From an uncultured bacterium (GTDB lineage Bacteria > Patescibacteriota > Minisyncoccia > Phycocordibacterales > UBA9973), in contig CAITGV010000003.1 of NCBI GenBank assembly GCA_903892035.1, positions 1-37,472 on the forward strand: a DNA stretch of 37,472 nucleotides. The letters are read 5' to 3'. The position numbers and the translations under genes are program-made. Positions 1-37,472 of the stretch are shown here, one piece after another. Numbering within the stretch: the stretch's first letter is position 1; every line of letters starts with the position of its first letter. The notes under the pieces are model-generated. The model was not told the DNA's origin, searched no databases, and saw only the letters and a list, made by a program, of their open reading frames with translations.

Positions 1-292
1 TCTCGTCCGCTTTGTATTTAGCGTTTCCCCGCACTTTCCATTTTGGAAAGCTCTGTGCTTCGCACAGAGGCGCGTAGCGCGCGGGGAACGCTAGTGATTA
101 CGATTTTGAAAAAATGTTCGAGCTTGGTACAATAGGGACACACGAGAGCAAGACAACTGCTTGTCTTGCGTGTGGGATTCGAAAGGCGCAGGCATAATTT
201 TTTCAGCAGAAAAAATTGCCGAGCCAGGGTCGTGAAAATTTTTTTGTGACGACAAAAAAATTATTCCTGACAGACTCCCACCTCGAATCATT
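1..292 (-). repeat. Composite structured GC-rich repeat (element A), possibly continuing beyond the window
   Basis: Dense palindromic DNA without a credible gene. Read on the minus strand it has two modules. The first, about 292 to 135, contains a nested hairpin (9-bp stem GCAAGACAA/TTGTCTTGC at 150-171) and a stretch resembling the island 2 arm near 33588-33640: CTGTCA, GGA, a T-rich/A-rich hairpin, then CGACC and GGCTCG. The second begins with GCTCGAAC at about 123-116 and runs into a cloverleaf (92-20), as in the island 1 arms. The order in island 1 (CTCGAAC terminus, spacer, cloverleaf) is kept, with a shorter spacer. It may be a junction of two elements, or the arm of another island upstream. 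Confidence 0.6.
20..92. other. Four-way-junction (cloverleaf-like) fold, copy 1
   Basis: An outer stem (AGCGTT, bulged T, CCCCGC at 20-32, against GCGGGGAACGCT at 81-92) closes three consecutive hairpins. These are CTTTCCA/TGGAAAG (34-50), CTCTGTGC/GCACAGAG with loop TTC (51-69), and GCGC/GCGC (70-80). The same fold recurs at 7059-7130 and 9337-9411 with different stem sequences that keep pairing. Whether it acts as RNA or as folded DNA cannot be told from the sequence. Confidence 0.6.
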
Positions 293-2303: not shown

Positions 2304-2699
2304 TTAACTTTTAATACCAAGGAATAATAATGCATCGTTTGCTCCAAGCATATACAAAATAAATTTAACTATTACCCATGATGCCAAAGCAATAATAAAA
2401 CCAGTGACAACACTAATAAGGACGTGTTTAGCTTTTGTTTTTGCTTCAGATGATCCCCCACTAGAAATCAAAAGAAAACCTCCATAAGCAAAAGCAATTG
2501 CAGCAAGAGGTACAGCCATATCTTTCAATAGAAAATCAATAACATTGTTTATGAGTGTCATCAAACTGTCAAAGTTGCAGTGTCCAGGATTTTCTACTGT
2601 CTCACACGGTATGATAGTTCTTGCACTTGCAAAAAACGGCGCAAATATGCCAAAAATTAAAAATAGAGTAGAAATATATTTTTTATATAATTTTTTCAT
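2304..2699 (-). CDS. T4SS pilin-like small membrane protein 5, with signal peptide
   Basis: This 131-aa protein has a signal peptide (cleavage near FASA), a short Cys-containing mature N-terminus (C32 and C41), and two helices around residues 60-80 and 92-118. The loop SGGSSEAKTKAK matches the paralogues. Its ATG overlaps the stop codon of the upstream solute-binding protein gene by one base, indicating translational coupling. Two cysteines before the first helix recur in pilin-like protein 2 and could form a disulfide, which would fit the thiol-disulfide proteins encoded further along. That link is speculation. Confidence 0.72.
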   Translation of the reverse strand: MKKLYKKYISTLFLIFGIFAPFFASARTIIPCETVENPGHCNFDSLMTLINNVIDFLLKDMAVPLAAIAFAYGGFLLISSGGSSEAKTKAKHVLISVVTGFIIALASWVIVKFILYMLGANDALLFLGIKS

Positions 2700-4015
2700 T
2701 ATTGTGCTGGGGCTTGTGGAGCTACTGAATGCTGTGCGACGATCTGACCTAAAACATTGTTGGCATTTCCTAATACGGTATTCAAACTATCTCCCCTGTT
2801 TATACCATCAATTATATCACGAAAAACTGCATTAGAAGCACCACGGTCAGGATCAAGCCAAGATTCTGATATCAAAGCAGAATTGTTAAACACTGGACCA
2901 TAGCTTGATATTGCTTTTACTGCAAGTAGATCACGCCTTGGTGATGGAAGTGATAGAGTATTTGCTAAATTTCCAGAAAAATCTGCGCCAGCTAAAATAG
3001 TCGTAGCTGTATACGCTGTTGTGAGATTTTTTGAACTCTTTAGCAATGCTATACCGTACATTCTTCCAAAAGTCAGGCTTTTATTTGTACCTGTAAGTTG
3101 TGGCATTTTAGCAACATCAAAATCAAGATTTGGATTTTGAGCTCTAATGCCAAAAAGTTCACTTGCATAGCCAAAATAAATTGCGAGCTGACTTGATGTA
3201 AAAGCGTCGCGAGAATTTGGTAATGATGCATTCCAAGAATATAAATTATTTAGAGGATTTGAAAATTGAGAATAAAAATTCATCGATGCTTGTGTATTAC
3301 CGATTGAACTGTCACTAATATTGGAAATATAACCTCCATTTTTTTGTGAAATTATTGGATTGCCGGATTGAAGCATAAGCATTGCCATTAAATCTTTTGC
3401 GTGATTTACATTATTGTAGGATCCAAAAGGAATACCAGCGACATTTATATTTGAAGCATTGTCTTTTTGGGTAAGTTTTGGAACCAATGATACAACATCG
3501 TCCCAAGTACGAGGAGGTAATGAAATTCCAGCTTCATTGAACATACTTTTATTGTAATACATAACCATCGGATCGATCGTAATTGGTAATGCAAGAATTC
3601 CTTGATCTGTTAAATATAATGAAGCTTCATCTATAAATGTTGATTGAAAAGTCCCTTGTGGAATACTTGTATATGGAATTGGATATATTTTATCGCGATG
3701 TTTAATAATTAAATTATCTGGCAAAAAAATCATATCTGGACCTTTTCCTGAAGCAAGTGCCTCAATTAAACTTTGGTCTAAATCTGCATCTGTCTTTTCA
3801 ACATACGTCAGAGTGAAAGCTTTATTATTTCTTGCAAAATCATCAAGGAGTTTTGAAATGCTGGATTGTTTTACCGTGCCCCACATCACCACATTACCTG
3901 TGGCTGTTGATGGTCCAGTACTGCTACCGATTGGAATGATGCCAGCAAAAATCATCACGGCAACAATACCGAAAACTAGAAAAAAAGCTACGATAGCAAT
4001 TTTGAAACTAGACAT
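2699..4015 (-). CDS. Family 1 extracellular solute-binding protein, membrane-anchored
   Basis: This 438-aa protein has one N-terminal membrane helix (about 5-28) followed by a periplasmic-binding-protein fold. Recognisable parts are the opening strand (NVVMWGTVKQSSISKLLDDF), the GKGPDMIFLPD segment, and the region ALPITIDPMVMYYNKSMFNEAGI typical of sugar-binding (MalE-type) proteins. There is no lipobox cysteine, so it is anchored by the helix instead of a lipid. No ABC permease or ATPase gene is nearby. It is coupled to a pilin-like gene downstream (1-nt overlap) and a methyltransferase upstream (8-nt overlap). It may capture a saccharide at the cell surface or serve as a structural or adhesive part of the pilin-like system. 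Ligand unknown. Confidence 0.8.
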   Translation of the reverse strand: MSSFKIAIVAFFLVFGIVAVMIFAGIIPIGSSTGPSTATGNVVMWGTVKQSSISKLLDDFARNNKAFTLTYVEKTDADLDQSLIEALASGKGPDMIFLPDNLIIKHRDKIYPIPYTSIPQGTFQSTFIDEASLYLTDQGILALPITIDPMVMYYNKSMFNEAGISLPPRTWDDVVSLVPKLTQKDNASNINVAGIPFGSYNNVNHAKDLMAMLMLQSGNPIISQKNGGYISNISDSSIGNTQASMNFYSQFSNPLNNLYSWNASLPNSRDAFTSSQLAIYFGYASELFGIRAQNPNLDFDVAKMPQLTGTNKSLTFGRMYGIALLKSSKNLTTAYTATTILAGADFSGNLANTLSLPSPRRDLLAVKAISSYGPVFNNSALISESWLDPDRGASNAVFRDIIDGINRGDSLNTVLGNANNVLGQIVAQHSVAPQAPAQ

Positions 4016-4589: not shown

Positions 4590-4682
4590 AATACAACCCC
4601 ACCCTAGCCCTCCCCTTATCAAGGGAGGGAAAAATGCTATATATTTTATGCCCCCCTGATAAGGGGGTACGGGGGTTGTATT
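4590..4682. repeat. Palindromic intergenic repeat, copy 1
   Basis: The element is bounded by AATACAACCC at the left and GGGGTTGTATT at the right, which form the outer stem. Inside are two hairpins built on CCTCCCCTTATCAAGGGAGG and CCCCCTGATAAGGGGG. Related copies lie at 24249-24404, 25588-25680 and 29060-29185. It looks like a REP/MITE-type element. Its right end contributes the probable -35 box of the rpsB promoter. Confidence 0.75.
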
Positions 4683-6815: not shown

Positions 6816-6891
6816 GCCGCTTTAGCTCAGTTGGTAGAGCAACGCTTTTGTAAAGCGAAGGTCCTCGGTTCGAGTCCGAGAAGCGGCTCCA
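6816..6891 (+). tRNA. tRNA-Thr (anticodon TGT), CCA encoded
   Basis: Acceptor GCCGCTT/AAGCGGC, D arm GCTCAGTTGGTAGAGC, anticodon loop TTTGTAA giving TGT, and T arm CCTCGGTTCGAGTCCGAGG. The discriminator T (6888) is followed by CCA (6889-6891), unlike the two tRNAs at 331-542, which lack CCA. A partial decayed copy follows, then island 1. Confidence 0.94.
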
Positions 6892-6915
6892 GTGTAAAAC
6901 TAAAAAGGTTCTGTC

Positions 6916-6965
6916 AACGCATAACTAAAACAAAGGTCCTCGGTTCGAGTCCGAGAAGCGGCTCC
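6916..6965 (+). pseudogene. Decayed partial copy of the tRNA-Thr 3' half
   Basis: Bases 6933-6965 repeat the last 33 bases of the tRNA-Thr (6858-6890) exactly. The preceding AACGC (6916-6920) keeps the same spacing as in the intact gene, but the anticodon arm between them has changed. The 5' half is unrecognisable. It is either a tandem tRNA pseudogene or the footprint of an integration event that duplicated the 3' end. Island 1 begins 33 bp further on. Confidence 0.8.
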
Positions 6966-6997
6966 TTAACCCGACTTTTTGGTTGGGAATCAAGAAA

Positions 6998-7291
6998 GGA
7001 GTGTCTTTACGATTCCGCTCGAACTTACTTTATCAAAAATTTGTGAGAATATCCACAAGCGTTCCCCGCGCGCTGAAGCGCCACCACGCGAAGCGTGGTG
7101 CTTCTGCTGAAGCAGAAGTGCGGGAAACGCCCTGCACTCCGCCACAATGTTTTGGGGGCAAAGGAGGCGAAGTGCAGAAATGCGGAACGCGAGCGAAATT
7201 TTGCGAAATGCTGGGGGTTTGGGGGAAAGTATTTCGCAAAATTCGCTTCGCGTACTTCCTGATTTTTTGGCGGGATTTTGGCGGGGCGGGC
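6998..7291 (+). repeat. Island 1 left inverted-repeat arm
   Basis: The order inward is GGAGTG end, CTCGAACTTACTTTATC terminus, cloverleaf fold (7059-7130), a second hairpin (CTGCACT/AGTGCAG, about 7131-7177), and a long GC-rich segment ending GGCGGGGCGGGCTA. Relative to the right arm, most differences fall in hairpin stems and come in compensating pairs. For example CACCACGC/GCGTGGTG replaces CTCTGTGC/GCACAGAG. Confidence 0.8.
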
Positions 7292-7331
7292 TAAAAAAAT
7301 TAAATTGTTCTTTTTAACAAAAGTAGTTTAT

Positions 7332-7934
7332 TTATGTTTGACAATTCTCAATAATTTTTTGCATTTTAATCCTACACTTATCTAAAATTTTTGATTCCCA
7401 TTCAGAATTTTTTAGCTCTCCAACATATAGATTTAATTCCTTATGTAACTCATATAAAAATTTAGTCGCGTTTATTGTCTTATTTTCTAAAAGAGATCCT
7501 CCTCTTTTTATTCGCCATCCGCCAGTTGTCTCACCTTGGTGTAAAATACCACAACGAATATGTTTGTAAAAATCTTTTTTAGAAAACTCTTTTAATGTAA
7601 TAGTCTTATTAAAAAAATCGTTAAATATTTTATCACCCCCTTTCGGGGTTTTATCCCACCCATTCTTAAATGATTGAAGTGCTTCTATACAAAGACAACA
7701 GTTCGCCATTATTGCAAATCCGCTTTTATATTCTTTCTTAAAAATATTATTCTCAAAAGTAAATGGTTTAAGATACCTACCATACAATCTACAAAAAATC
7801 ATTTTGGCTATGGCTGATTTATTTTTTTCGTTAACAAATTGCTCATAATTTTTAATCGTTACATCTTTACCATTTTCAAGTGTTGCTAAAATAATATCAT
7901 CGGTATTCGATTTATATTTTTTAGTTTTTATCAT
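7332..7934 (-). CDS. HEPN-like protein (putative RNase-type or nucleic-acid-associated)
   Basis: This 200-aa helical, soluble, lysine-rich protein starts 4 nt after the J-domain gene and so is probably co-translated. Near the C-terminal third, HIRCGILHQGET carries R127-x4-H132, the Rx4-6H motif of HEPN domains. The preceding helix (AIMANCCLCIEALQSF) and overall length also fit a HEPN four-helix bundle. Many HEPN proteins are RNases in toxin-antitoxin, abortive infection or CRISPR systems, though others are inactive. A partner antitoxin (MNT nucleotidyltransferase) is not present. The assignment rests on this motif and fold pattern, without homology support. It lies inside the inverted-repeat cassette. 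Confidence 0.55.
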   Translation of the reverse strand: MIKTKKYKSNTDDIILATLENGKDVTIKNYEQFVNEKNKSAIAKMIFCRLYGRYLKPFTFENNIFKKEYKSGFAIMANCCLCIEALQSFKNGWDKTPKGGDKIFNDFFNKTITLKEFSKKDFYKHIRCGILHQGETTGGWRIKRGGSLLENKTINATKFLYELHKELNLYVGELKNSEWESKILDKCRIKMQKIIENCQT

Positions 7935-7938
7935 TTTT

Positions 7939-9078
7939 TTATTTAGGCACTACCTTGAGAAAATCTGTTGCGAGTAGTATCGGAGTAGTATTACCTTGAT
8001 AGCCACCGTCTGTGTAAATATTGGAATAACTATATATACCAACAGTATAATCTCCCTCTTTAAGCGGTTTCCAAATTTTATTAAAATATATACCCGACGA
8101 AGATCCTATTGGGCAAAATTCTACTCCACCTCCATGGTCAGTGCCGTCATAATAAATAGATTCCTGTGTTGTCGGTAATGTCAATCTACCTTCCCATATT
8201 CGTACTGATATGCCACCATAGCCGTGAGTATTTGAATAAGTTCCATAAATTGCTGTAGATTCAGATGTTGATACCAGCGAACTTTTATCAATTGTTGCAG
8301 TCGTAGCAACCCCCTCCTTATAAGAAGTATTGGGGAGGTTTGTGCAGTCATTTTTGAATTGTTCAAGTGTATATGAGGACGGCGATTGTGAAATATATTT
8401 TGGGACATTCGTATTGGTATTTTGTGTTGGAACAAAAGAATTTATATCATTCACCGAAGAATTATCAGAATATAGATTATTTTGATTTTGTTGAATATCT
8501 GGTGTTGAATTAGAATTTCTTGACAATGTTACAACAAGAGTAATTATTGAAATAATTAAAAATGCAATTGCCCAATTTACTTTTTGTTGTTCTTTATCAT
8601 TTTCCTTTTTAATAACTGAAAAAATATGTGCAATAATTTTTGATATTACCAGTCCTCCTAATAACTGTCCTAGCAAACGAGGAAAAGAAACCCCGCCAGA
8701 GCTAAAGGAAGAAATAATTTCAATCAATAATCCAATGCTAATTAAAACCCAGAAAAGTTGTGATTTATTTATTGAAAAATTTGTACTGTCGTTGTTTATT
8801 GGCTTATTAGAATTTTGAGAACTTGTTTTATTTTTATTATCCTCATTTTCTTTTTGTTTATTTGATTCCTGGCGTGGTTTATAGTTAAGATCATATTGTG
8901 CCTTGTTTTTATCGTTAGAAAGAATACGGTATGCCTCGTTGATTTCTTTGAATCTCTTCTCCTTGCCTTGATTTTTATCAGGGTGAAATTGGTGCGCGAG
9001 AATATGATACGCTTGCTTTATATCCTCTTTTGAGGCATTTTGCGTAATTCCTAGAATATCGTAATAATCTTTTTGCAT
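7939..9078 (-). CDS. Membrane protein with N-terminal J domain and extracytoplasmic C-terminal domain
   Basis: The ATG at 9078 (379 aa) is preferred over a TTG 18 nt upstream. Residues 1-65 are a J domain (DYYDILGI, HPD at 32-34, the EINEAYRILSND helix), which stimulates DnaK-type ATPases. A polar Asn/Lys/Ser-rich linker follows (about 66-105). Next come hydrophobic segments (about 110-160 and 172-190) predicted to cross the membrane. The C-terminal half is beta-rich (GGISVRIWEGRLTLP, GGGVEFCPIG, EGDYTVGIYSYS), resembling an Ig-like fold. The G/F and zinc domains of classical DnaJ are absent. It could couple an outside or envelope event to cytosolic DnaK. It forms a two-gene unit with the HEPN-like gene inside island 1. 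Confidence 0.8.
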   Translation of the reverse strand: MQKDYYDILGITQNASKEDIKQAYHILAHQFHPDKNQGKEKRFKEINEAYRILSNDKNKAQYDLNYKPRQESNKQKENEDNKNKTSSQNSNKPINNDSTNFSINKSQLFWVLISIGLLIEIISSFSSGGVSFPRLLGQLLGGLVISKIIAHIFSVIKKENDKEQQKVNWAIAFLIISIITLVVTLSRNSNSTPDIQQNQNNLYSDNSSVNDINSFVPTQNTNTNVPKYISQSPSSYTLEQFKNDCTNLPNTSYKEGVATTATIDKSSLVSTSESTAIYGTYSNTHGYGGISVRIWEGRLTLPTTQESIYYDGTDHGGGVEFCPIGSSSGIYFNKIWKPLKEGDYTVGIYSYSNIYTDGGYQGNTTPILLATDFLKVVPK

Positions 9079-9087
9079 ATAGCCTTT

Positions 9088-9116
9088 ATTATACAAAAAT
9101 AAGCTTAAAAAGCCAA
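9088..9116 (-). promoter_or_regulatory. Promoter of the island 1 genes
   Basis: On the minus strand: TTGGCT (9116-9111), a 17-bp spacer, and TATAAT (9093-9088). The ATG of the J-domain gene lies 9 nt beyond the -10, so the transcript would begin 1-4 nt before the start codon. The AAAGG resembling a ribosome-binding site would then fall at or before the transcript start. Confidence 0.6.
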
Positions 9117-9124
9117 TTTATTTA

Positions 9125-9157
9125 GATACCATAAAATTATGAAAATTTTATGGTATC
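9125..9157 (+). terminator. Hairpin with T-tract at the inner edge of the right arm
   Basis: GATACCATAAAATT and its complement form a 14-bp stem with a 5-nt loop, followed on the plus strand by AATTTTTTCTTTT. As a plus-strand terminator it would block rightward transcription leaving the cassette. It also sits just upstream of the promoter of the minus-strand cargo. Confidence 0.55.
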
Positions 9158-9173
9158 AATTTTTTCTTTTCCA

Positions 9174-9471
9174 TAGCCCGCCCCGCCAAAATCCCGCCAA
9201 AAAATCAGGAAGTACGCGAAGCGAATTTTGCGAAATACTTTCCCCCAAACCCCCAGCATTTCGCAAAATTTCGCTCGCGTTTCGCATTTGCATTTCTGCA
9301 TACCACATCCTTTTTAAAAGATTGTGTGGTGTGCAGAGCGTTTCCCCGCACTTCTGCTTCAGCAGAAGCTCTGTGCTTCGCACAGAGGCGCTTCAGCGCG
9401 CGGGGAACGCTTGTGGATATTCTCACGAATTTTTGATAAAGTAAGTTCGAGCGGAATCGTAAAACCACTCC
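9174..9471 (-). repeat. Island 1 right inverted-repeat arm
   Basis: Reverse-complement counterpart of 6998-7291. It contains a cloverleaf copy (9337-9411) and a second hairpin (CTGCA/TGCAG and ACCACA/TGTGGT, about 9296-9336 on the opposite strand). The conserved terminus is at 9417-9451. The inner ~110 bp is essentially identical to the left arm; the hairpin regions differ in a paired manner. Confidence 0.8.
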
Positions 9472-24248: not shown

Positions 24249-24404
24249 AATACAACCCATCCCTAACCCTTCCCTTATCAAGGAAGGGAAACTGCTAAGC
24301 ATTTTCTGTATTTGCATTTCTCCCCTCTCCTTTACAAGGAGAGGGGTTGGGGTGAGGTTCTTACCTTCCTTGATAAGGGAAGGTGCCCGAAGGGCGGATG
24401 GGTT
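24249..24404. repeat. Palindromic intergenic repeat, copy 2 (three-hairpin form)
   Basis: Starts AATACAACCCATCCC and ends GGATGGGTT. It contains three palindromes: CCCTTCCCTTATCAAGGAAGGG, CCCCTCTCCTTTACAAGGAGAGGGG and CCTTCCTTGATAAGGGAAGG. The first ~50 bp is the reverse complement of the conserved right part of the copies at 25629-25680 and 29134-29185. No coding potential; it fills much of the rpoB-trmD gap. Confidence 0.75.
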
Positions 24405-25587: not shown

Positions 25588-25680
25588 AATACAACCCCCT
25601 TAATCCCCCTTATCAGGGGGAAATAAATGCTAAGCAGTTTCCCTTCCTTGATAAGGGAAGGGTTAGGGATGGGTTGTATT
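25588..25680. repeat. Palindromic intergenic repeat, copy 3
   Basis: Bounded by AATACAACCC and GGGTTGTATT with inner palindromes CCCCCTTATCAGGGGG and CCCTTCCTTGATAAGGGAAGGG. The 52-bp right part (25629-25680) is the same as that of copy 4. It lies between rpsP and khpA within a conserved operon, so the transcript would carry this hairpin. Confidence 0.8.
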
Positions 25681-29074: not shown

Positions 29075-29185
29075 ATAACCTATCGTTCATGATAGGCACC
29101 TGTAGACGGCCCCCCATCAAGGGGACTTTAAAAGCTAAGCAGTTTCCCTTCCTTGATAAGGGAAGGGTTAGGGATGGGTTGTATT
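29060..29185. repeat. Palindromic intergenic repeat, copy 4, overlapping the capA-like 3' end
   Basis: The left end AATACAACCCA forms the last codons of the CapA-like gene and the right end GGGTTGTATT touches the smc stop codon. Between them are CCTATCGTTCATGATAGG and CCCTTCCTTGATAAGGGAAGGG. It separates two convergent operons and may serve as their shared terminator. Bases 29134-29185 match copy 3. Confidence 0.8.
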
Positions 29186-33376: not shown

Positions 33377-33410
33377 ATGGTGGATAAAAATGAGTCCCTC
33401 TTAAACAAGG

Positions 33411-33685
33411 CTCGAACTTACTTTAGCAAAAATTCGTAAGAGTACAAACTCTAGCTAAGTGGTACGCTCCACGACCGTCGTTCATCCGAGTTCATACTAC
33501 GCTCGCACTCTGTGCCAAATCTGTCGCCCGCTTCCGATTGAGTACAATCGCCTACTGGGTCAATCGGGAGTACCCTCACGATGTCCGCCCTGTCACGGAT
33601 ATTTTTCTGCTGAAAAATTCCGCGACCCCGACTCGGCTCGTCAGCCTCCGTCTCTAAAACGCTCCGAGCACTCGCGTTTTAGCCC
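33411..33685 (+). repeat. Island 2 left inverted-repeat arm
   Basis: After the shared terminus (33411-33444) come GTGGTACGCTCCAC, a T-rich/A-rich hairpin (ATTTTTCTGCTGAAAAAT, 33600-33617) and a terminal hairpin CTAAAACGC/GCGTTTTAG (33654-33682). Compared with the right arm it has an extra ~27-bp stretch containing CGATTGAGTACAATCG. The terminal hairpin differs from the right-arm copy by compensating changes. Confidence 0.8.
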
Positions 33686-33905
33686 TCGCCATCCCCACTC
33701 CACGTTTTGCATATGAGAGTAAGTGGTGTCGCTTTCGCTTCTGTACTTCAGTGACTTCGACAACGTCGGCGCTCATCCGTTCGCCATGGACGCTCCTAGC
33801 GGAAATGTCCGAGGCGGAGATGCGAATGCTTGCCCCAGTCTCCGCTTGAGTACAAGCGGAGACTCCCACCCGTGCGCGCAGGCAGGTGCCTCCCTTATTT
33901 TAAAA
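33686..33905. other. GC-rich palindromic spacer inside island 2
   Basis: No gene is supported. A long perfect hairpin, GTCTCCGCTTGAGTACAAGCGGAGAC (33839-33864), shares its TTGAGTACAA centre with the hairpin in the left arm, followed by ACTCCCACC as in element A (about 276). It appears to be a further piece of the same repeat family. Confidence 0.45.
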
Positions 33906-34379
33906 CTAGATTTTAGAATACGAAACCCCTTCTCCAGTCTTTGAATTCTGTTTGATTTTGTTTTCCTTTTTTAGTATCTCTAAATATCGAGTTGCGGTTG
34001 CATCAGATGCATGCAAAAGTTTCTCGACTTCGTCGTTTGTGATACTTGTTCGCTTCGCGAACAAGGTCATGAGTAAATCAAGTTTCTTTTGTTTCCGAGA
34101 CTGGATAGCACTTCTCGCTTTTGCGAGAAGTGAGCGGGCAAGATCGCGGGGAGAGATACTTGAAGACTGCGGAGGCTTCGCCTCCGCAGTTGGTTGAGGT
34201 TGAGATACTGGTTCGCCTAACGGCTCACTGACTGGAGCAAACGGCTCATTTACGCCCACTTGAGCCGTTTCGGTTGTAGGAGTTGGAATGGATTCAGGAG
34301 GAGAAATTGGGTCGGAGACTGCGCCTGACGGCACAGTTGAGGGAGAGGTTTGTGGGGCTTGGGATTGGTCTGGGGGCAT
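33906..34379 (-). CDS. Winged-helix protein with disordered proline-rich N-terminus
   Basis: In this 157-aa protein residues 1-75 are Pro/Ser/Thr/Glu-rich and probably disordered. A basic helix follows (RDLARSLLAKARSAIQSRKQKK). Residues about 98-157 look like a winged helix: LDLLMTLFAKRTSITNDEVEKLL, the recognition-helix-like SDATATRYLEILKKE, and a short wing. This suggests a DNA-binding regulator. Three perfect hairpins lie within the coding sequence (34045-34065, 34109-34132, 34166-34190), each with a TTC or TTTT loop as in the structured repeats. The gene is the last of island 2 on minus and ends close to the left repeat region. Target unknown. Confidence 0.72.
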   Translation of the reverse strand: MPPDQSQAPQTSPSTVPSGAVSDPISPPESIPTPTTETAQVGVNEPFAPVSEPLGEPVSQPQPTAEAKPPQSSSISPRDLARSLLAKARSAIQSRKQKKLDLLMTLFAKRTSITNDEVEKLLHASDATATRYLEILKKENKIKQNSKTGEGVSYSKI

Positions 34380-34418
34380 AGGTAGAGTATATCAAAGTTA
34401 ATATATTAGAAAAAGAAA

Positions 34419-34444
34419 AAGCTCGAACATTTCTGTCCGAGCTT
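34419..34444. terminator. Hairpin between membrane and winged-helix genes
   Basis: AAGCTCG (34419-34425) and CGAGCTT (34438-34444) form a stem flanked by an A-run on the left and AATTTTTTGA on the right, so termination is possible on both strands. It ends the membrane-protein transcript on minus. Confidence 0.65.
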
Positions 34445-34471
34445 AATTTTTTGATTAAAGATTTATGTTTA

Positions 34472-35380
34472 TTAAATCTTTTTGTTTACCCACCACTTCA
34501 CTGTAGCTAGTGAAGCTTTTCTTCGATTAATCATTGTAGGTATGCCGAATCGAATTAATATAAACGAGACGACAACTTCAAGAATAGTATAAATCCATAT
34601 GCCCAAAGGTGAGCGAAAACCCGATATCCCATTTCTGTCTCTTAAACATAATCCATATGGCGTTTTCCAAACATCGAATTCATTATTGGATAAATAACCA
34701 TTATCTAAATCAATCGTTTGATCAACTCTCTCAACAAATAAATCTTGTTTAAGATTATTCCTTGAAAATAGTGACACGATAAAGTCATTACCCGTTAGAC
34801 TTTTTACAGTATCAAATCCATTAGATACTTTACTTATTTCACCTCTACTACCTGAGAAAAAGTTTAAATTGTTAATATAGAGAAAACTCAAAGGTAACAA
34901 GCACAACATGATTCCAATCAGTCTAACTGGAATGGTTGAGTTTCTTGCTTTAAAGATTCCGTCATTAAACAATTGTTTTCCTCTGTTGAATAAAAGAAAG
35001 CTAAAGTACCAAACCGTACCGACTGATAATGCTAGTAGTCCGTAAGATTTACTACTCAAGTACATTTCTCGCATATCAACGCCTTTTATTTTGGCAATGA
35101 TAAACAGAGTTGCAATACCAAGACTTGCCATACCGATAAAAATACCAGTGAGGCTACACATCAGGAATGCGGAATTTCTTCCAATTCCTTTTTCCATTTT
35201 TACAATTTCATTATTGACTACATCTGCCATAAGAGCAGAGCCAATAGCAAAAGTGATTACAAGACCGCATGCAGCGATATTGCTTAGTAAGTTTGACAGG
35301 GCAATGTTTCCTACTACGAAGGAAGAAATGCCAACGATCATTGTGATCGCGAATACGATGAGAACAATTTTACTTTTCAT
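34472..35380 (-). CDS. Polytopic membrane protein of unknown function
   Basis: This 302-aa protein has predicted membrane helices at about 5-24, 30-53, 72-96, 112-132, 152-170 and 262-282. One larger soluble loop (about 172-260) is polar and probably lies outside the membrane (SGSRGEISKVSNGFDTV ... FDVWKTPYGLCLRDRNG). The C-terminus is basic. I recognise no family. It has its own promoter (35511-35540) and a long hairpin in its leader, and is bounded by terminators on both sides, so it is an independent unit inside island 2. Confidence 0.7.
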   Translation of the reverse strand: MKSKIVLIVFAITMIVGISSFVVGNIALSNLLSNIAACGLVITFAIGSALMADVVNNEIVKMEKGIGRNSAFLMCSLTGIFIGMASLGIATLFIIAKIKGVDMREMYLSSKSYGLLALSVGTVWYFSFLLFNRGKQLFNDGIFKARNSTIPVRLIGIMLCLLPLSFLYINNLNFFSGSRGEISKVSNGFDTVKSLTGNDFIVSLFSRNNLKQDLFVERVDQTIDLDNGYLSNNEFDVWKTPYGLCLRDRNGISGFRSPLGIWIYTILEVVVSFILIRFGIPTMINRRKASLATVKWWVNKKI

Positions 35381-35413
35381 TTTTTTTTACTTATTTAATT
35401 ATTATTAGTTTAT

Positions 35414-35464
35414 TTAATTACGTTACTTTATGCTCCGCTTGGAAGGACAAAGTAACGTAATTAA
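35414..35464 (-). promoter_or_regulatory. Large hairpin in the leader of the membrane-protein gene
   Basis: TTAATTACGTTACTTT and its exact complement form a 16-bp stem around a 19-nt loop, located 34 nt before the ATG and downstream of the promoter. It lacks a T-run, so it is more likely an RNA-stability, protein-binding or translation-control element than a terminator. Confidence 0.5.
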
Positions 35465-35510
35465 CTACCAATAAAAACAGTATTTTCAAAGAACCCTTAT
35501 ACTTACTTAT

Positions 35511-35540
35511 ATTATAGCATATATAAGGCATAAAAGTCAA
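35511..35540 (-). promoter_or_regulatory. Promoter of the membrane-protein gene
   Basis: On the minus strand TTGACT (35540-35535), an 18-bp spacer and TATAAT (35516-35511), both near consensus. The leader to the ATG at 35380 would be about 125 nt. Confidence 0.65.
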
Positions 35541-35544
35541 TAGT

Positions 35545-35584
35545 AAAGCAAAAGTACCTTGTATTTACAAGGTACTTTTGCTTT
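35545..35584 (-). terminator. Terminator of the coiled-coil gene
   Basis: AAAGCAAAAGTACCTTGTA with its complement forms an ~18-bp stem (35545-35584) with a tiny loop, 49 nt after the coiled-coil gene stop and just before the next promoter. Confidence 0.7.
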
Positions 35585-35633
35585 CTAAGTGACTTGGAGC
35601 TGTGCTTAGTACTACTAATATGTAATTTTAAGA

Positions 35634-37109
35634 TTATTTCTTCTTTGAAACCTCGATAATCACTTTTTGTGCTTCTTCAAATTTTTTCTTTGCTTTATTG
35701 TATATATCAAGTATTTCTTGCTTTTCTTTTGAAAACTCTCTTGTTTTAACTTGTTCTATATAAGTCTCTAATTTTTGTACCAACTCGCCAATCGTTATGT
35801 CATTTTGAACTCCGCCAATTTTCTCAAACTTTTTAGTTAAAAGATTTTCTTCATAGCCTGGAATTTCCCTTATCAACTTTTCAACACCTGACAAGTCTTT
35901 GGAAAGACTTTCTTTCTCTTTATAGAACTTCTCAGCATTTTCCTTATCTTCAAAACGAGCAATTTGTCCTTCTAAATATTCCTTACGACTGTTCCATTTT
36001 TTCTTTCCAAATATACCACCTAGTGTACCAGGCTCATTTTTTAGATGTTCTTCAAGTTCTTTGCTAACTTCAGTCCATTTTTTTCTATCTTCCGTTGACA
36101 AAAAATTTCGTGAAGTTTCTCCCCAACTTTTTTGAGCCTTTTCATATGCTTCATGCTGAGACATTGGCATAATTTCGTAATCATTTGTCCACAGCTTTTC
36201 TTCGCTATCTTTTATTCCTTTTTTGAAGTCAGGCAGATTTAAGGACAAATAAATTATATCCTTTTTCTCTTTTTCAATAGAATTCTTTTCGGTTTCAAGC
36301 GCGCCGAGTGCATTGTAGTTACCAACAGTGTCGCCAAACGTATTACGAGTATTTGCCAGTATAACAGTCATTTCTATTTGTGGTTCAACAAAATTACGCA
36401 GAAGTTTTTTTGTTTCTTCATTAAGTCCGCGAGGATCCTTATCTATGATTTTCAACACAGACTCTTTAAGAAGCTCTGTTATTTCTTCAGGGGAATTTTG
36501 CTGCAATACTCTTTTTAACTTATCAAAATATATGTTACCGCTCTCCCATGTTCCTTTCTTGAATTTATCTACATCCACGTAACCATAGCTAACTTGTAAC
36601 AGCTCTTTCTCTATCGCTTGTCTTTTTTCTTCATGAGCCTTTTCTTTGCCCTCTTTTGTTTGCGAAAAAAGTTCGTTAACTTGCTTTTCTTTTTCAGGAA
36701 TAGAAGTTTCAAGACTTTTTATTTCTTCATTTAAATTACTTACTTCTTCTTGCAGATTTTTCCACTCTGTTTTTTCACTAGAAAAAACTTCGTCAAAACC
36801 TTCTTTGGTGTGCAAAATCTTCTCAACTTCTTCGTCTTGGCGAGCTTCTTCAACTGCTTTGTGTCCTGTTTTAATAATACCTCCTCGTTGTGATTTTATT
36901 TCAGTTAAACGTTTCAAAATTTCATCTTTGCGCGTCAATAGACCAGAAAGAGCTTGTTTTTCGGTGTTGTATTCAGCAACTCTTTGTATTTCGGCTTCTG
37001 CTTCACTCGTCTGTCTCTGATTTTTCTCATTTTGGCGCTTTTCTTGCTCCTTTTGCTTAAGGGCTTTAATCTTGGCAAGGCCTGATTCATTTTGAGTCAC
37101 ATTTTCCAT
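35634..37109 (-). CDS. Long coiled-coil protein of unknown function
   Basis: The ATG at 37109 gives 491 aa and fits the nearby promoter. An in-frame ATG at 37178 would add 23 residues encoded in a GC-rich palindrome next to the repeat arm and is less likely. The protein is soluble and extremely rich in Glu, Lys and Gln. Long heptad-like helices occupy about 10-150, and a second charged helical region spans about 285-490. The middle (about 160-270) is less charged and may be globular. No ATPase motif, signal peptide or membrane helix is visible. It resembles generic filament- or SMC-arm-like proteins, with no family recognised. It is the first gene of island 2. Confidence 0.68.
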   Translation of the reverse strand: MENVTQNESGLAKIKALKQKEQEKRQNEKNQRQTSEAEAEIQRVAEYNTEKQALSGLLTRKDEILKRLTEIKSQRGGIIKTGHKAVEEARQDEEVEKILHTKEGFDEVFSSEKTEWKNLQEEVSNLNEEIKSLETSIPEKEKQVNELFSQTKEGKEKAHEEKRQAIEKELLQVSYGYVDVDKFKKGTWESGNIYFDKLKRVLQQNSPEEITELLKESVLKIIDKDPRGLNEETKKLLRNFVEPQIEMTVILANTRNTFGDTVGNYNALGALETEKNSIEKEKKDIIYLSLNLPDFKKGIKDSEEKLWTNDYEIMPMSQHEAYEKAQKSWGETSRNFLSTEDRKKWTEVSKELEEHLKNEPGTLGGIFGKKKWNSRKEYLEGQIARFEDKENAEKFYKEKESLSKDLSGVEKLIREIPGYEENLLTKKFEKIGGVQNDITIGELVQKLETYIEQVKTREFSKEKQEILDIYNKAKKKFEEAQKVIIEVSKKK

Positions 37110-37119
37110 AGATGCCGAA

Positions 37120-37148
37120 ATTGTAGCATTTTCCAAAATGTGTTGCAA
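37120..37148 (-). promoter_or_regulatory. Promoter of the coiled-coil gene
   Basis: On the minus strand TTGCAA (37148-37143), a 17-bp spacer and TACAAT (37125-37120), 10 nt before the ATG at 37109. The transcript would have only a few bases before the start codon. Confidence 0.5.
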
Positions 37149-37231
37149 TTTTTTATCCACCGCCCGCCCCTCCCGCATCGCCCATACGAATCAAAAAGAA
37201 ATCCCGCCGACTCAAAGAAGAATGGAAAAGC

Positions 37232-37472
37232 GATGCGGGCTGAAATGCGAATACTTGGAGCATTTCAGAGACGGAGGCTGACGAGCCGAGTCGGGGTCGC
37301 GGAATTTTTCAGCAGAAAAATATCCGTGACAGGGCGGACATCGTGAGGGTACTCCCGATGAGAAGCGGGCGACAGAATTAGCACAGAGTGCGAGCGTAAT
37401 ATGAACTCGGATGAACGACGGTCGTGGAGCGTACCACTTAGCATTGTTTGTACTCTTACGAATTTTTGCTAA
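37232..37472 (-). repeat. Island 2 right inverted-repeat arm (runs off the window)
   Basis: Inverted counterpart of 33411-33685. The terminal hairpin is CTGAAATGC/GCATTTCAG (37240-37268) and the T-rich hairpin lies at about 37303-37321. The shared outer terminus is cut at the last base of the window. The arm lacks the ~27-bp insertion present in the left arm. Confidence 0.8.

Follow-up and report, generated by a model that had tools for sequence, protein, structure and literature searches.

A covarying four-way fold at the integrase gene end in the terminal inverted repeats of tRNA-targeting integrative elements of Patescibacteria

In this study, we investigated a window of 37,472 nucleotides, which is the entire contig C3 of an 807-kb genome, and the four-way-junction fold found in it in three copies. 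From sequence comparison, and with a probability of roughly 60%, we read this fold as a non-coding foldback module in the terminal inverted repeats (TIRs) of small integrative elements of Patescibacteria, which would close the integrase gene, with the junction between integrase repeat and TIR as the putative attP, and which would more probably act as DNA than as the 3'UTR of an mRNA. The fold is conserved by paired mutations, and the element that carries it is a new variant of the tRNA-targeting serine-integrase islands.

Copies and structure of the fold

The three copies in the window are as follows.

20 to 92, minus strand: four-way-junction fold of a second element, cut by the contig end (covariance model; positions 1 to 141 are identical to the end of contig C5)
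7,058 to 7,131, plus strand: four-way-junction fold, left copy (folding; covariance model match of 93.8 bits)
9,337 to 9,411, minus strand: four-way-junction fold, right copy, same element as the copy at 7,058 (folding; covariance model)

A sequence-only reading of this DNA had described three copies sharing an outer stem and three hairpins; all of them are present where it placed them and fold as it described, having in common an outer stem of about 12 bp and hairpins of 4, 8 and 7 bp. In the order listed, RNA folding gave -46.4, -45.1 and -48.2 kcal/mol, with z-scores of -8.6, -5.7 and -6.0, and the same fold was obtained with DNA parameters. The paired changes claimed for two hairpins were also confirmed, as both quoted sets of arms are found in the sequence, namely CACCACGC/GCGTGGTG versus CTCTGTGC/GCACAGAG in one hairpin and CTTCTGC/GCAGAAG versus CTTTCCA/TGGAAAG in the other.

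The copies at 7,058 and 9,337 form the inverted left and right ends of a single element. The copy at 20-92 lies within a 141-bp stretch that the start of C3 has exactly in common with the end of C5, and thus marks an end of a second element, cut by an assembly break. Contig C4 of G000 (L107, 1678 bp) consists entirely of N and could represent the cargo missing where the end of C5 would join the start of C3.

Conservation by paired changes

Three copies alone are thin evidence for covariation. A covariance model built from them and searched against related genomes, the check suggested with the sequence-only reading, gave 80 matches, which are spread over 38 of 147 genomes from the same GTDB family; the refitted model found more copies in 16 genomes from other families of the order (genomes drawn as a sample), and the fold also in 5 genomes from other orders of the class. 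In a pattern scan of named genomes, the copies came mostly from Candidatus Nomurabacteria and other Paceibacterota/Parcubacteria, and single contigs from Kaiserbacteria and Daviesbacteria also carry the fold. The covariation set comprised 102 copies, 84 of them distinct, from Paceibacteria genomes. Among the 84 distinct sequences, 96.5% of cells are paired, two-sided changes occur at 28 of the 31 pairs (shuffled mean 18.0), and the covariation score is 0.387 versus 0.149; none of the shuffles comes up to these values, and slid registers all fall to 31-60% paired. Conservation of the fold by covariation, as put forward in the sequence-only reading, has strong backing when many copies are compared.

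The stems do not all change in the same way. Single-pair compensated steps are seen in the third, 7-bp hairpin (e.g., CTTTCCC/GGGAAAG versus CTTTTCC/GGAAAAG and CTTTCTC/GAGAAAG) and likewise in the outer stem. The 8-bp middle hairpin occurs as a few block alleles, of the CTCTGTGC, CACCACGC and CTGTGT types, with no compensated intermediates; two copies have its loop inverted from GAA to TTC, and L098:5133-5214 is a chimeric fold, its first half inverted and its second half normal, which matches both strands. Hairpins swapped whole by recombination instead of mutating pairwise had been named beforehand as an observation that would refute the sequence-only reading, and this applies in part: the middle hairpin changes as whole alleles, inverted loops and the half-inverted L098 occur as well, and the third hairpin and the outer stem change pair by pair. 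Template switching in palindromes could turn imperfect arms into perfect ones, and the two-sided changes would then be a by-product without selection on function. The features of the middle hairpin and of L098, together with the near absence of G-U pairs, fit such a process, but many families of one class have retained the stem lengths (about 12, 4, 8 and 7) and the short loops, and the outer stem covaries at all 12 pairs although about 50 nt of other hairpins lie between its arms, so that we regard it as an unlikely explanation of the fold. Palindrome-correcting mutation may possibly have aided selection of a DNA hairpin, and that part of the covariation could stem from it counts against the foldback-module reading.

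Integrase module and tRNA target

Next to the fold and outside the fold repeats, an integrase was noticed in 18 loci and in contig C5 of this genome. This recombinase is of the large serine type, with Resolvase, Recombinase and Zn ribbon domains (E 1.6e-18, 1.5e-18 and 1.9e-10, respectively), reads away from the fold and towards the tRNA where one is seen, and has its own pair of flanking inverted repeats, each about 115-170 bp long. The far side of the module, where present, abuts the 3' end (CC(A) end) of a tRNA gene, the targets at the junctions being tRNAs for Leu, Thr, Gly, Arg, Ala, Val, Phe, Ser and others. The same integrase family was found in 103 of the 147 genomes, a wider spread than that of the fold; beside some integrases, hairpins of another kind take the place of the fold. 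It had been proposed that a recombinase recognises the fold as single-stranded DNA; the involvement of a recombinase holds, but a single-stranded att site is not supported because the enzyme is a large serine recombinase, and such enzymes act on duplex DNA and cut both strands.

In L155 and L170, the integrase repeat on the 5' side meets a tRNA 3' end where the TIR would otherwise be; in L155 the integrase lies between tRNA-Tyr and tRNA-Arg, a different tRNA on each side. Both loci look like the outcome of recombination between the internal attP and a second tRNA, with a rearrangement of the chromosome as the result. At L006:4440-4530, L047:2285-2385 and L055:2110-2200, the integrase start is preceded by a conserved long hairpin (beginning AGCAGAAATGGYTAC) with a further complementary segment, which could give the integrase mRNA a structured leader.

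The left flank of the window element contains the following features.

6,816 to 6,891, plus strand: tRNA-Thr(TGT), integration target (tRNA call; related genomes with sites free of the element)
6,915 to 6,965, plus strand: duplicated tRNA-Thr 3' part (repeat family D8)
6,966 to 6,997, plus strand: remnant of the integrase module's inverted repeat (by inspection; similar to the repeat on the left side of L042 in G143)

With tRNA-Thr, a duplication of its 3' part and about 32 bp resembling the integrase repeat on this flank, the integrase seems to have been lost here. In the closest relative found (L218), the gene that stands to the right of the window element comes immediately after tRNA-Thr, a site without the element, and in L223 a partial tRNA-Thr duplication is present with the element absent.

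The integrase tail and its stop codon

The outer arms of the window elements encode the following tails.

91 to 141, minus strand: native integrase C-terminal tail VSLLYQARTFFQNRNH with stop, the stop overlapping the fold's first 2 nt
6,999 to 7,046, plus strand: native integrase C-terminal tail ECLYDSARTYFIKNL with stop, 11 nt before the fold
9,423 to 9,470, minus strand: native integrase C-terminal tail EWFYDSARTYFIKNS with stop
33,392 to 33,439, plus strand: integrase tail ESLLNKARTYFSKNS with stop, of another element without the four-way fold (TIRs of this element at 33,423-33,685 and 37,237-37,472)

The outer 50 bp or so of each TIR encodes the native C-terminal tail of the integrase (ending in LLYQVRTYFQNR and a stop), in frame across the junction. 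The frame from integrase through repeat and TIR tail to the stop is unbroken in all of the approximately 18 loci with a complete junction, as in the tails SLLYQVRTYFQNR and CLYDSARTYFIKNS, each ending at a stop, which are read through the repeat into the TIR; on the tRNA side, the same integrase frame runs on into antisense tRNA. Of 69 distinct outer arms, 63 carry an R-T-(Y/F)-F tail motif, written in a mixture of synonymous codons (CGA/AGA; ACC/ACT/ACA; TTT/TTC), and in 63 of 69 distinct copies the stop codon stands at -16 to +2 nt relative to the fold's first base. The L079/L126 contig harbors an intact 570-aa integrase, ending in RYLLDKVRMFFEENPDDQNY and a stop, with the fold 3 nt after the stop. 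Taken together, the conserved in-frame tail, the stop at the fold start and the intact L079 gene indicate that the fold is the immediate downstream, non-coding tail of the integrase gene.

Two other readings of the outer arm were considered and set aside. Outward promoter-like matches are found in 61% of arms versus 14% in shuffles, and an outward promoter with a LexA-like box is not claimed because the coding tail LLYQVRTYF explains the conserved bases. A mimic of the tRNA T-loop (GTTCGA) has its spacing to the junction off by about 4 nt, and the coding-tail reading replaces it.

The sequence-only reading had also suggested an independent structured RNA of about tRNA size. The fold is indeed stable in both senses, but it gave no tRNA call and no match at gathering score in Rfam 15, inward promoters occur in 7% of the outer arms versus 14% in shuffles, against 61% for outward promoter-like sites, and its position is bound to the integrase stop codon. 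We therefore regard the free small RNA as highly improbable.

Terminal inverted repeats and cargo

The fold lies about 60 bp inside TIRs of about 300 bp that bracket 1.5-6 kb of unrelated cargo. In the window element, these parts are as follows.

6,998 to 7,307, plus strand: left TIR with integrase tail, fold and further hairpins (87% identical to the inverse of 9,157-9,471)
7,332 to 7,934, minus strand: cargo ORF of 200 aa (no Pfam or PADLOC match)
7,939 to 9,096, minus strand: cargo ORF of 385 aa, DnaJ-domain membrane protein (Pfam DnaJ, E=1.4e-22)
9,157 to 9,471, minus strand: right TIR, which pairs with 6,998-7,307

Eight complete elements were found in other genomes; their TIR arms measure 265-324 bp and show 91-100% identity. 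TIR pairs are in opposite orientation, 2-6 kb apart. Cargo is rarely common between the eight, that of L040 and L044 being related, and the types observed in other elements include a glycosyltransferase, methyltransferase, NUDIX, metallophosphoesterase, ART domain and a helicase-nuclease resembling defence proteins. No transposase was seen between the repeats. The fold is optional, since the window element at 33,410-37,472 has the tail and no four-way fold, and in L156, L173 and L176 the tail is followed by other hairpins; this, too, speaks against the foldback-module reading.

Further in, the TIRs (e.g., L047:2775-2930) contain two more hairpins with varying stems and conserved purine-rich loops (ending in TTTTCTGGGGAAAGGA, and GGAGGGGTCTGGGGAGGAA), whose loop cores seem to vary together (CTGGGG or GCGGGA); in one copy, the left arm of L044, an inner-hairpin loop is inverted. 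At L130:2628-2936 and L114:2449-2907, two fold copies stand about 160-320 bp apart, as if the cargo unit were nearly empty.

LOOT RNA (RF03000), a structured RNA frequent in these genomes, was found inside at least five of these elements (L047:2981-3102, L050:5791-5932, L076:1161-1282, L082:160-284 and L088:5341-5463), where it mostly lies a few hundred nt inside the TIR. It differs from the fold as a separate family and an occasional cargo, and the other LOOT loci examined are mostly without nearby integrase tails; as only a minority of LOOT loci lie within these elements, it was rejected as a general partner of the fold. The genome's own single LOOT is at C1:96381-96503.

Elsewhere in the window, dispersed, near-identical, MITE-like palindromic repeats (beginning AATACAACCCATCCCTAACCCTTCCCTTATCAAGG) were observed at 4,590-4,632, 24,249-24,304, 25,615-25,680 and 29,120-29,185. 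Five adjacent small membrane-protein ORFs of 97-222 aa lie at 593-2,699 and resemble TrbC/VirB2-type pilins by eye only; they adjoin a 438-aa protein (2,699-4,015) that looks like a solute-binding protein.

Folded DNA or mRNA end

The position of the fold at the stop codon is compatible with both a DNA element and an mRNA 3'UTR, and in this respect weakens the preference for DNA. It is possible, though we rather doubt it, that in the circular form the integrase mRNA ends in the fold and the hairpins after it, which would terminate or stabilise it, so that integration would separate the gene from this tail and expression would drop. The sense orientation directly after the stop agrees with this, and so do the additional hairpins further down, which have conserved purine-rich loops and often a T-run behind the last of them. 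Against it, the stems hold hardly any G-U pairs, with 26 in about 2500 cells (1.0%) versus 90 of 1233 pairs (7.3%) in the tRNAs found at these loci, G-U is no more frequent than A-C once two columns are left out, one a misaligned bulge and the other confined to a single clade, and loops and half-folds are sometimes inverted. The few G-U pairs, the lack of strand bias and the inverted hairpins lean towards DNA over an mRNA 3'UTR. The commonest allele contains the GCGAAGC mini-hairpin, which is unusually stable in DNA. For the inner hairpins, a strand bias was dropped, as distinct arms of the first one gave G-U 1 versus A-C 3; a count of G-U 31 versus A-C 6 had included one shared outer pair many times and was not used.

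Under the foldback-module reading, the integrase gene with an inverted repeat on either side forms a module at the tRNA CC(A) end, and the other side of this module abuts the TIR-bracketed cargo, an arrangement seen in the sequence. The junction of repeat and TIR, which is observed inside the elements, would serve as attP in the circular form and occur in two oppositely oriented copies, and integration into the tRNA would swap the native integrase tail for antisense tRNA sequence. The fold would close the integrase gene and be selected as a compact self-pairing structure, more likely as DNA hairpins or a cruciform beside the recombination site than as an mRNA 3'UTR; its candidate roles are insulation of attP and gene end, or a landing structure for some factor. 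Against this reading, serine integrases need duplex DNA, and no partner needing a DNA hairpin was found. A single-stranded element folding into a duplex attP was also considered, as the two inverted junctions would pair, and was rejected because a serine integrase, by cutting both strands, would leave the chromosome with hairpin-capped ends.

As a tentative proposal that may well prove wrong, the integrase could change its C-terminal tail on integration, from native RTYF in the circle to an antisense-tRNA tail in the chromosome, while a selected four-way DNA junction marks the gene end beside each of the two inverted attP, making a built-in integration-state sensor coupled to folded DNA. This tail swap is directly testable.

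Patescibacteria have tiny genomes and their gene exchange is little known. The element family, recognisable by tail motif, fold, TIRs and tRNA target, with exact borders for finding more, moves defence-like genes, glycosyltransferases, NUDIX enzymes and LOOT RNA, and many contig breaks in these genomes fall within its repeats.

Comparison with known systems

No description of these elements was found in the literature searched, which covers part of the field, and an exact pattern scan of IMG/VR viral contigs did not detect the fold. The fold is a new covarying nucleic-acid family, without an Rfam match and tied to the integrase gene end. With the known tRNA-targeting islands that use a large serine recombinase, these elements share a Resolvase/Recombinase/Zn-ribbon integrase at tRNA 3' ends, variable cargo and an integrase 3' end at att. 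They differ from them in their two-module build, in which either module has inverted repeats of its own at its ends and the putative attP therefore occurs twice in opposite orientation, and in a tail-coding TIR with a covarying four-way fold. The CTX phage folds two inverted att copies of its single-stranded DNA into an attP for XerC/D, with single-strand exchange. Inverted duplicate att sites able to pair in one strand are present here as well, but the enzyme is a serine and not a tyrosine recombinase, and since it cuts both strands, the same trick would break the chromosome. An integron attC cassette would go with attC boxes and the tyrosine integrase IntI; the recombinase adjacent to the fold belongs to the serine class. 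The staphylococcal SCC elements likewise employ serine recombinases and a fixed chromosomal site, and have cargo units that are also found without a recombinase; their target is a different one, and we know of no four-way fold or tail-coding TIRs described there.
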